This document shows positions 6,941-10,490 of a stretch of 49,060 nt of DNA, in pieces. The notes beneath the pieces were generated by a model. The model ran no database searches, was not told the origin of the DNA, and saw nothing but the letters and a program-made list of their open reading frames with translations. This DNA is from Halocatena pleomorpha (lineage in GTDB: Archaea; Halobacteriota; Halobacteria; Halobacteriales; Haloarculaceae), in the NCBI RefSeq assembly GCF_003862495.1, contig NZ_RRCH01000016.1, positions 1 to 49,060 on the forward strand, in the 5' to 3' direction. Each line of letters opens with the position of its first letter. Within the stretch, counting starts at the first letter, position 1. Both the position numbers and the translations under genes were made by a program.

Positions 6941-7210
6941 TCATTCACCACCGCCACCGCCACCGCCACCGTCTCCACCACCGCCGAAGCCGCCACCGCC
7001 GAAGCCGCCACCACCGAAGCCGCCACCGCCGTCGCCATCACCGCCGCCGAATAACCCGCCGCCACTATCTCCGCCACTGTCCCCATCATCCTCCCCGTAG
7101 GCCACGTTCGTCCCGGATTTCGATCGACTCCTCGATCCGAGTCTCCCCACCAGTGCTTTGAATACGATGTAGCTAAAGATAACTATGAATGCTATAGTTA
7201 TTAATTCCAT
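6941..7210 (-). CDS. small membrane-anchored glycine-rich protein
   Basis: 89 residues: one N-terminal hydrophobic helix (ELITIAFIVIFSYIVFKALVG), a short basic stretch (RLGSRSRSKSG), an acidic patch, then about 40 residues of almost pure glycine with repeated GGGGF units. The topology suggests a membrane-anchored flexible tail, perhaps surface exposed, but I do not recognise a family. An ATATTA box at about 7232-7240 on this strand sits 26 bases before the ATG. The tail is encoded by nearly perfect triplet and hexamer repeats, so its length may vary between strains. Confidence 0.65.
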   Translation of the reverse strand: MELITIAFIVIFSYIVFKALVGRLGSRSRSKSGTNVAYGEDDGDSGGDSGGGLFGGGDGDGGGGFGGGGFGGGGFGGGGDGGGGGGGGE

Positions 7211-7723: not shown

Positions 7724-7969
7724 ATGAAGATCGAATACGATCGTGACACCTGCATTGGGATGTTTCAGTGTGTCGCGGAGTGGGAAGGGTTCGAGAGGGA
7801 CGAAACGGCGGGGAAAGCCGTTCTCGTTGACGGTGAAGAGGAACAGCCGGACACGTTCGTCCAGACAGTGCCTGAGGACGCCGAACTCGACGCGAAGTTC
7901 GCGGCCCGCGTTTGCCCCGTCGACGCCATCACCGTGTATGACGACGACGGCGAGCAGCTCATTCCGTGA
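7724..7969 (+). CDS. small single-cluster ferredoxin (3Fe-4S/4Fe-4S type)
   Basis: 81 residues. The N-terminal motif DRDTCIGMFQCVAEW supplies two cysteines five residues apart, and RVCPVDAITVYDDDG supplies a third followed by Pro. This C-x5-C...CP pattern is that of 3Fe-4S ferredoxins of the type that serve cytochrome P450s; a fourth ligand is not evident, so a 3Fe-4S cluster is more likely than 4Fe-4S. It is a soluble acidic electron carrier. The partner enzyme is not encoded nearby. The coding sequence begins 110 bases from the divergent hypothetical gene. Confidence 0.85.
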   Translation: MKIEYDRDTCIGMFQCVAEWEGFERDETAGKAVLVDGEEEQPDTFVQTVPEDAELDAKFAARVCPVDAITVYDDDGEQLIP

Positions 7970-8001: not shown

Positions 8002-8763
8002 TCACCCCCCGAGCGTTCGAGGCTTCGTGTTCGTTGATTCGTCGGTCGGAGCGTCCGCGCGGAGGAGCACGATCCCGATTCCGACTTTCACGAGGAGATC
8101 GAGAAGGAGATACGCGAGCAACAGCCCCGTTGTCGGAAGGAGATTCAGGACGTGACCCAGTAGCCACACGACTGGATACAGTCCGAAGAGGACGATGACG
8201 AGATTCCGGACCATACTGAACAGCATTGCGACTTCCGTCGACTGCTCGGCAGCAGCGCGCGAGAGCGGACGGACCAGCAGTATGAAAACGCCGAGATAGG
8301 CGAGAACGCTCGCCCCCAACAGCGTGAACCGGAACGTCTCTGCGTTTAGTCCACCCATTCCTCGGTTGGTGAGCGCCGTTGCGAGACCGAGCACCACCAT
8401 CGACGCGTCAAAGCCAACGAGTGCGGCCGCTGTCCGGCGCGTCCCGGCCGCGAGCAACACGAGCGCGAGCAGTATCAGCGGTGTGGTGAGAAGCCAATCA
8501 ACGAAATGGAGCCAATACACTGTGTGTGGTTCGCTGCCGTACCGTACTGTCGTCATGCCGTAGCCGAGCGCCAACAGCAGGTACGCGAGACCACCGATAG
8601 CGGCGACCGCGATGGTGAGCACCGATAGTTTGCGTTTCGTCGTATCCGTTTCCCCCCATCCGGTCTTGAGGAAATAGCCGGTCGTGAGGACCAGTCCGAC
8701 CGTCCCAAGCAGTAACCAGATCCGACCGCTATCGATGGCCTCAGCCTGTAGCAACACTGCCAT
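8002..8763 (-). CDS. divergent bacteriorhodopsin-family retinal protein
   Basis: 253 residues and seven hydrophobic helices. In helix G, Lys226 (DLLVKVGIG) matches the retinal Schiff-base Lys216 of bacteriorhodopsin, and Asp222 matches Asp212. In helix C, YWLHFVDWLLTTP keeps the counterion (Asp89 = D85) and T93 (= T89). His86 replaces the near-universal Arg82, and Ala100 replaces the proton donor Asp96. Leu148/Leu149 replace Trp137/Trp138, Phe193 replaces Trp182, and the loop equivalents of Glu194 and Glu204 are absent. Tyr196, Pro197, Trp200 (YPVVW) and Asp119 (= D115) are kept. It should bind retinal, but a normal proton pump is unlikely. No transducer or retinal-synthesis gene adjoins it. 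The start is the ATG at 8763, set by alignment and by a TATA box 30 bases upstream. Confidence 0.9.
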   Translation of the reverse strand: MAVLLQAEAIDSGRIWLLLGTVGLVLTTGYFLKTGWGETDTTKRKLSVLTIAVAAIGGLAYLLLALGYGMTTVRYGSEPHTVYWLHFVDWLLTTPLILLALVLLAAGTRRTAAALVGFDASMVVLGLATALTNRGMGGLNAETFRFTLLGASVLAYLGVFILLVRPLSRAAAEQSTEVAMLFSMVRNLVIVLFGLYPVVWLLGHVLNLLPTTGLLLAYLLLDLLVKVGIGIVLLRADAPTDESTNTKPRTLGG

Positions 8764-8788
8764 CGAACTGGCTATCGAGAGTGTCTGA

Positions 8789-8797
8789 CTTATATTT
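8789..8797 (-). promoter_or_regulatory. TATA box of the rhodopsin gene
   Basis: On the minus strand AAATATAAG is centred about 30 bases before the ATG at 8763. This implies a very short leader and rules against longer in-frame starts up to 8937. Confidence 0.65.
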
Positions 8798-8952
8798 GAC
8801 TTTTCGACGTTGCTGCGTGTGATATATCTACGTGTGAAATGAACACATGGTGATACAGTCGGTGACCGGAGACGACACTGTTCGTTACTGACGCCGTTAT
8901 CGAGCAGGGGATCGCGCTTCTCGAATCGGAGTAGCACACCGTATAGGGTCCG

Positions 8953-9867
8953 TTAGCGACGGAGTTGGGCGGTCGTCTCGCCGTCGTGCTCGTCTGTCTC
9001 GACGAGACCATCGGCTTCGAGATCTGAAAGCAGCTCTCGGAGCCACTCCCGGCCGTATTCGCCGTCGGGGCTGTAATCGACTCGGACGCGCGGTCCGAGG
9101 CTATCGAGTGGAAGTTCGTCGTACTCTTTGAGAATCGAGATCACGCGGCCCCGCATCTGCCGACGGCTCCCTTCGAAGCTCGGTTGTGTGGGTACGTCGG
9201 GCGCGGTGAAGTCACCGGTCTGATAGGCATGACACCACTCGCGCCACGGACAGCCCGCATCCTCACACCGAGGTTTCTTCTGACACGCGACACTGCCGAG
9301 TTCCATGATGGCGTTGTTCCACACCCGTGATTTGCCATCCGGCATAAGGGCGTTCGCAACGTCTTCGAACGCACTGTCGTCGTCTGCCACGTCGAACGCC
9401 CGATACAGCACACGTTTGACATTCGTGTCGACGACGGCGTCGCCGTCGTTGAACGCGAAGCTGGCGACTGCGTTGGCCGTATAGGGACCGACGCCCTGTA
9501 GCGATTGTAACGCCGTGGGTGAGGCGGGAAACTCGCCGTCGTGCTCATCGAGTATCTGTTGTGCTGCGGTGTGGAGGTATTTCGCTCGGTTGTTGTAGCC
9601 CAACCGGTGGTCAGACCAGAACGCCACTACCGCACCCCGTTCCGCTGTGGCGAGTGCCGACACTGTGGGCCACCGATCGAGAAACGCCGCCCACGCTTTT
9701 TCGACCCGCTCCAGTTGTGTCTGTTGGCTCATCACTTCCGACACGAGGATTTCGTACGGATCAGTGGTTCGTCGCCACGGGAAATCGCGGTGGTCAGACG
9801 CATACCAGTCGATGAGCGCCACGCGAACGCCATCAGTGTCCTCAGGAAGGGCAGCCGCCTCGGTCAT
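8953..9867 (-). CDS. mutY: A/G-specific adenine glycosylase (MutY type)
   Basis: 304 residues. HhH-GPD fold with SEVMSQQTQLERV (the glutamate is at the MutY catalytic position), the helix-hairpin-helix LQSLQGVGPYTANAVASFAF and the catalytic aspartate in VVDTNVKRVL. MutY removes adenine mispaired with 8-oxoguanine. The iron-sulfur loop has four cysteines at spacing C-x5-C-x4-C-x5-C rather than the textbook C-x6-C-x2-C-x5-C. The start at 9867 is set by a minus-strand TATA (CGTTTATG, 9892-9900) 29 bases upstream; an in-frame start at 9909 is unlikely. The C-terminal 60 residues look like a winged-helix segment instead of the bacterial NUDIX-like domain. Confidence 0.92.
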   Translation of the reverse strand: MTEAAALPEDTDGVRVALIDWYASDHRDFPWRRTTDPYEILVSEVMSQQTQLERVEKAWAAFLDRWPTVSALATAERGAVVAFWSDHRLGYNNRAKYLHTAAQQILDEHDGEFPASPTALQSLQGVGPYTANAVASFAFNDGDAVVDTNVKRVLYRAFDVADDDSAFEDVANALMPDGKSRVWNNAIMELGSVACQKKPRCEDAGCPWREWCHAYQTGDFTAPDVPTQPSFEGSRRQMRGRVISILKEYDELPLDSLGPRVRVDYSPDGEYGREWLRELLSDLEADGLVETDEHDGETTAQLRR

Positions 9868-9993
9868 TAGATCCACGTAGAAACTCCAGCCCATAAACGA
9901 TCTCGACACGAAACGGAGCCGCGTTTCGATTCTACGGCGGGCATGTCAGGCCGTTAACGGCCCAGAATGGAGCGTGCAGTGCGTGTCGTAACG

Positions 9994-10022: not shown

Positions 10023-10490
10023 ATGTCGGATTGTCCACTCGCGGACGAGTGTCCCCATTACACCGAGCGGATCGAGGGTATGGGGTGTCAACACTACAGC
10101 GAGCGCGGAGGGGCGGAGTGGTGTACCCACTACGAACAGCCCATCCGTGAACTCAAGTCCCAGCCAGTCAAACCCGGCGAGGAGATTGTCGTCGACGTAA
10201 CCGATATTCACGAGAGCGGAGCGGGTGTCGGTCGAACGGAAGAGGGATTCATCGTTCTCGTCGACGGCGTGCTGCCCGAGGCGCGGGCACGAGTGCGTAT
10301 CACCACCGTCAGATCGAATCACGCCCGCGCGGAAGAACTCGAGCGGCTTTCGATACCCGACGAGGAGGAGGCCAAAACCGAAGCTGAAGCCGAAGCCGAA
10401 GCCGAAACTGAAACTGAAACCGAGACCGATGACGGGCGGACCCTCGACCGCCAACGGCTCGGGAGTCGGGACAACTTCTGGGGTTCGTAG
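10023..10490 (+). CDS. TRAM-domain protein with cysteine-rich N-terminus and acidic repeat tail
   Basis: 155 residues. The first 35 have five Cys and three His (CPLADECPHY, GCQHYSER, WCTHYEQ), which could bind metal. Residues 47-107 form a TRAM beta-barrel (VKPGEEIVVDVTDIHESGAGVGRTEEGF...ARARVRITTV), a fold that binds RNA in TrmA/MiaB-type enzymes and in stand-alone archaeal TRAM proteins. The tail consists of EA and ET dipeptides coded by tandem GCCGAA/ACTGAA hexamers. It is probably an RNA-binding or chaperone-like protein. The function of the Cys/His segment is unknown. Confidence 0.8.
   Translation: MSDCPLADECPHYTERIEGMGCQHYSERGGAEWCTHYEQPIRELKSQPVKPGEEIVVDVTDIHESGAGVGRTEEGFIVLVDGVLPEARARVRITTVRSNHARAEELERLSIPDEEEAKTEAEAEAEAETETETETDDGRTLDRQRLGSRDNFWGS

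Follow-up and report, generated by a model that had tools for sequence, protein, structure and literature searches.

What does a rhodopsin do once its pumping residues are lost and the known genes for retinal supply are no longer found in its host? The question is raised by an opsin gene of Halocatena pleomorpha, located in a 49,060-nucleotide stretch (hereafter the window) of a draft genome that is 96.6% complete (G000). The relevant features of the window are as follows.

8002..8763, minus strand: opsin coding sequence with His at position 82, 253 aa, from the ATG at 8763 to the stop
8746..8811, minus strand: conserved 5' block, about -48 to +18, with a TATA-type promoter near the ATG and the first codons
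8773-8794, minus strand: core of the 5' block, TATAAGTCAGACACTCTCGATA
8494..8517, minus strand: helix C motif YWLHFVDW, spanning His86 (bacteriorhodopsin position 82)
7724..7969, plus strand: 4Fe-4S ferredoxin (Fer4_15), convergent neighbour and syntenic marker of the ancestral locus
8953..9909, minus strand: MutY-like A/G glycosylase, upstream of the opsin

The reading frame lies where a sequence-only reading of the window had placed it, and its product is a genuine type-1 rhodopsin, matching PF01036 at 140.8 bits in a profile search (cut-off 24.6). NCBIfam assigns no subfamily. The AF2 model (pLDDT 85) shows a seven-helix fold with a Foldseek TM of 0.83 to HmBRI; a poor single-sequence model (pLDDT 55.7) was discarded. 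A plasmid origin was rejected as no plasmid matches were found. The window also encodes a small protein that combines a single hydrophobic N-terminal segment and a long tail rich in glycine (6941-7210, minus strand) and is matched at the corresponding position in G004 (L065 6640-6912), and a Cys-rich protein with a C-terminal tract of alternating Glu-Ala/Glu-Thr repeats (10023-10490, plus strand).

All residue losses listed in the sequence-only reading are borne out by alignment: Arg82 is His86, Asp96 is Ala100, Trp137/138 are Leu/Leu, Trp182 is Phe193, and equivalents of E194/E204 are absent. Lys226, Asp222, Asp89, Thr93 and Asp119 are present as claimed. In bacteriorhodopsin (BR) numbering, used from here on, the opsin keeps Y57, D85, W86, T89, D115, Y185, P186, W189, D212 and K216. 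Among 67 other Lys-bearing haloarchaeal rhodopsins collected for this analysis, R82, Y83 and W182 are each found in 67/67, in line with the high conservation stated earlier for Arg82 and Trp182, and position 138 is only W, F or Y. His82, Phe182 and Leu138 are thus real departures. Losses of D96, W137, E194 and E204 alone are unremarkable because these positions vary normally in halorhodopsins (HR) and sensory rhodopsins (SR). Three further changes, A53G, T142V and A215V, had been missed and are seen in none of the 67. The opsin has D85 and T89 rather than the Thr85 and Ser89 expected of a halorhodopsin.

The altered residues are shared throughout the genus. Orthologs with His82 and Ala96 are present in 7/7 genomes of the Halocatena group, the named members being Halocatena marina DFN5 and strain YIM A00010, and represent six distinct sequences, of which five are 90, 83, 63, 50 and 49% identical to the window opsin. 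H82, A96, L137, V142, D85, T89, D212 and K216 are fixed in 6/6 orthologs. The occurrence of His82, Ala96 and Leu137 in six different orthologs rules out a sequencing artefact. All six lack the residues of a BR-type pump (H82, A96, no E194/E204) and retain the Schiff-base lysine and counterions (K216, D85, D212). The earlier expectation of slow or no pumping is supported, with a normal pump made unlikely by the clade-wide absence of donor, release group and helix-C arginine. The H. marina ortholog still carries Trp at 182, a point also overlooked. When 391 Halobacteria genomes from 86 genera were searched for YWxH[YF]xDW, the pattern turned up in this genus alone. In the literature searched, we found no paper describing the opsin of this clade as such, and a 2023 paper on morphogenesis speaks of 'halorhodopsin' only (PMC10067837). 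Within the genus, contigs G002:C1 and G003:C1 have equal length (3,915,224 bases) and the same match coordinates; G002 (5.3 Mb, 9% contamination) could represent the same organism in a mixed assembly.

The opsin is under purifying selection. Its dN/dS in close pairs is 0.13 (G000-G004), 0.18 (G000-G005) and 0.26 (G001-G006), and all six lineages have an intact reading frame, even at identities as low as 44%. Conservation extends to the 5' end, where a stretch of about 66 bases (-48 to +18) hardly varies among the six orthologs. From -35 to -1, 27 of 35 bases are invariant, compared with 5-18 for five neighbouring genes (four genomes). Codons 2-6 are identical in 6/6 orthologs, while a single codon is used throughout at only 18 of the 84 invariant residues. 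No regulon was found for the promoter motif, as matches beyond the opsin promoters did not exceed the reversed-pattern control. Genome and proteomic data indicate that strain YIM 93972 makes a 'halorhodopsin' (PMC10067837). We take G001 to be this strain, and its single PF01036 gene is the His82 opsin, so the reported protein is probably this opsin, which is apparently expressed in this relative. Kept by selection and apparently expressed despite lost pump residues and retinal genes, the gene probably does a job other than light-driven pumping.

Both phylogeny and gene order point to a pump as the ancestor. In a maximum-likelihood tree with long branches, the check proposed in the sequence-only reading, the His82 clade groups with BR/HR pumps, apart from sensory rhodopsins and opsin-related proteins (ORPs; support 99/99). 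Synteny is the stronger evidence of origin. In G052, of the same family and another genus, the gene order is Hel308, ferredoxin, canonical pump, crtY, BCD and malate dehydrogenase. The same place in H. marina holds the His82 opsin and crtY without BCD, and in G005, G001 and G006 the opsin lies between the same flanks with neither crtY nor BCD. Only the ferredoxin neighbour of the ancestral locus is kept in G000 and G004, the two genomes where the MutY-like gene adjoins the opsin through a local rearrangement. The ferredoxin adjoins the opsin in 6/6 orthologs (in G005 with one Nudix gene inserted between them) and adjoins the canonical pump in G052; it serves as a locus marker, and we claim no functional link. 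The shared locus order thus makes the opsin directly orthologous to a pump whose gene formerly stood with those for retinal synthesis. The Hel308+Mdh tree (96/93) agrees with the opsin tree in placing H. marina basal, so a single loss of BCD and CrtY suffices. An apparent crtY-BCD fusion in G052 was rejected because the 652-aa ORF reads crtY out of frame; the two are separate genes, with crtY at 7306-8004 of L068 and BCD following it.

Retinal supply genes are restricted within the genus. The retinal-making gene BCD (PF15461) occurs in two of the seven genomes, both H. marina assemblies, and CrtY is likewise confined to H. marina. These assemblies also carry a canonical pump and a halorhodopsin beside BCD and crtY. 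The two crtY genes of H. marina (L064 8611-9333; L088) are 38-42% alike, one adjoining the His82 opsin and the other lying in the BCD-crtY-BR-HR island. Neither BCD and CrtY nor a second PF01036 opsin were found in the other five genomes, the window's included. Carotenoid cleavage dioxygenase (CCD, PF03055) was not found in G000, G004 and G005; G001, G006 and H. marina have it. The CCDs of G001, G006 and G003 (L070, L072, L073) are of the RPE65 type and could give apocarotenals. Lycopene-cyclase-like matches in G000, G004 and G005 were rejected as CrtY, measuring about 95-120 aa compared with 240-251 aa for CrtY. Such half-size proteins occur in G000, G003, G004 and G005, away from any carotenoid cyclase (loci L086 at G000:C23:136398-136652, L085, L087 and L083).

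Across the family, BCD is present in 118 of 146 genomes, and only five family genomes outside the genus combine a rhodopsin match with a lack of BCD (G045, G062, G111, G114 and G122). All matches in G122 and two of the three in G111 lack the lysine. The remaining three genomes, G045, G062 and G114, are without BCD, yet encode canonical Lys-bearing rhodopsins with intact pockets, so absence of BCD alone is no proof of absent retinal. These three genomes are near-complete and might belong to retinal scavengers (loci L074-L076, L079). Some bacteria without blh are also known to produce or import retinal (PMC7734400).

The retinal pocket itself has evolved unevenly. The Schiff-base cluster is invariant at 8/8 residues, K216 included (p=3e-4 vs other helix sites). 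The polyene/ring pocket of the five BCD-less species is invariant at only 5/16 sites. In 300 comparison sets, each made up of five canonical pumps matched for mean identity, the number of invariant sites averages 14.2 and never falls below 11. The pocket of the BCD-less species thus lacks the conservation expected of a retinal-binding rhodopsin. The remaining helix sites are equally constrained in the two groups (66 vs 62 invariant sites for BCD-less opsins and matched pumps). H. marina, the BCD-bearing species, is alone in retaining W182 and W138. Changes near the chromophore site among orthologs include A215L, T90F and P186G, and no common new pocket has been fixed. The sequence-only reading expected retinal to bind in a loosened pocket. 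Bulk does not support such loosening: the summed side-chain volume is close to that of BR (3027 vs 3075 A3), hence the pocket is re-packed and not emptied. Retinal binding is not established either, with no BCD, CCD or CrtY detected in the genome and the constraint on the ring pocket gone.

We suggest, with belief and doubt nearly in balance, that the opsin descends from a pump that was first deprived of its pumping residues and later of its supply of retinal, and that it is now mainly retinal-independent in BCD-less species. The starting point would have been a BR-type proton pump. Alignment and tree place R82H, D96A and the loss of the release glutamates in the genus ancestor, where the Schiff-base lysine and counterions stayed. 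In one branch, BCD and CrtY would then have been lost and the polyene/ring pocket would have drifted afterwards, an order suggested by the tree and synteny. In the BCD-less species, including that of the window, the opsin might function largely without retinal. Its buried K216-D85-D212-H82-Y57-Y185 cluster could form a salt-bridge and proton-relay core that braces the helix bundle, with the protein serving as membrane sensor, scaffold or proton leak independently of retinal. The H. marina opsin should still bind retinal, as a weak or uncoupled pump. The new ion-handling type raised in the sequence-only reading may apply mainly to this species, where BCD and CrtY are still there. Against a retinal-free role, the invariant Schiff-base cluster is what retinal binding would demand, and Lys-less ORPs have lost most of these eight residues. 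The BR-like total pocket volume and the BCD-less genomes with canonical rhodopsins also speak against it, as do the blh-less bacteria that obtain retinal (PMC7734400) and the draft state of G000.

Ranked close behind, and plausible though rather less probable, is that the opsin scavenges retinal of neighbours (or another polyene aldehyde) from the brine and acts either as a photoreceptor that is slow or as a proton leak gated by light. R82H would then open the gate against passive proton flow, D96A would remove the donor and W182F would alter the photocycle. The Schiff-base network without any loss of K216, the conserved pocket volume and the similarity of the AF2 model to BR-type structures (TM 0.83) are consistent with scavenging. 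Laboratory-made mutants provide a precedent, since replacing the equivalent arginine by Gln in CsR and BR (CsR-R83Q, CsR-R83Q-W182F, BR-R82Q) leads to weak pumping and a passive proton current (PMC4657025). CsR-R83Q-W182F, which shares both changes in position with the opsin, combines weakened pumping with passive proton passage, and the pKa of D85 in BR rises from 2.5 to 7.2 (PMC4657025). The mutants differ from the opsin in having Gln instead of His and in being supplied with retinal. By their precedent, weak pumping with passive proton passage is the likely outcome if retinal is bound. R. lacicola pumps with exogenous retinal, as cited in PMC7734400. Against scavenging, the polyene/ring pocket of the BCD-less species evolves like other helix positions, with A215L, T90F and P186G near the chromophore site and no shared replacement pocket. 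We know of no retinal uptake system.

Other explanations are considerably weaker. An ordinary working rhodopsin, whether pump or sensor, using retinal from an unidentified endogenous pathway is improbable. A. minutum makes retinal without blh (PMC7734400), and canonical rhodopsins do exist in the BCD-less G045, G062 and G114, but the opsin has neither donor, release group nor Arg82, and CrtY is gone as well. The photosensor suggested in the sequence-only reading is disfavoured because the opsin falls outside the SR clade and, as that reading had itself noted, no transducer gene adjoins it; transducer-coupled phototaxis was rejected on these grounds, and the archaellum has been lost in the related morphogenetic clade (PMC10067837). 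A decaying relic, still open only through recent loss, would match the lost retinal genes and the drifting pocket. This is very unlikely given the intact reading frames, a promoter conserved beyond those of neighbours and the protein reported in YIM 93972 (PMC10067837). The dN/dS values largely refute it. Haloarchaeal opsins reportedly act on bacterioruberin synthesis, which would allow for a role as lycopene-elongase inhibitor. This role is the least credible, as YIM 93972 (G001) has no lycopene elongase and has kept the opsin (PMC10067837).

Returning to the former-pump reading, the closest known system in biology is the ORPs (Becker 2016, PMC4915679). ORPs are likewise probably retinal-free, have lost W178(SRII)/W182 and reside in hosts without crtY and brp; in the genus too, both are absent where no canonical opsin is present. 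Unlike the His82 clade, which is pump-derived, keeps the lysine in all orthologs and does not group with sensory opsins, ORPs have lost K216 together with a large part of the Schiff-base site, and they branch close to sensory rhodopsins (PMC4915679). Haloarchaeal bacteriorhodopsin, cruxrhodopsin and deltarhodopsin pumps share fold (4pxk, TM 0.83, 40% identity), lineage and D85, T89, D212 and K216 with the opsin, itself orthologous by synteny to the canonical pump of G052. The opsin differs from them by R82H, D96A, an altered ring pocket and the lack of E194/E204, and most of its hosts lack retinal genes. KCR channelrhodopsins have also naturally lost the helix-C arginine (Trp102), but are eukaryotic cation channels of another lineage (PMC7615185). 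R. lacicola and A. minutum similarly have a rhodopsin without a known retinal-making gene, but theirs are working proton pumps when given retinal, whereas the pump residues and pocket of the His82 opsin are altered (PMC7734400).

Routes from a light receptor to a light-independent protein are as a rule reconstructed from their end points, for example the Lys-less ORPs. In the Halocatena group and its relatives, intermediates apparently coexist at one locus, as pump with crtY and BCD, as His82 opsin with crtY, and as opsin alone. We propose, somewhat more cautiously than the loss scenario itself, that the clade represents a pump-derived, Lys-bearing, retinal-free opsin intermediate between a rhodopsin and an ORP. 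A still photoactive, natural R82H stage, possibly a light-gated proton channel, would then be seen in H. marina, and the retinal-free stage in its relatives without BCD. The opsin is a natural Arg82-to-His rhodopsin, and engineering shows that replacing this arginine uncouples pumps. If the surviving intermediates are true ones, the order of loss would be testable in cultured strains.
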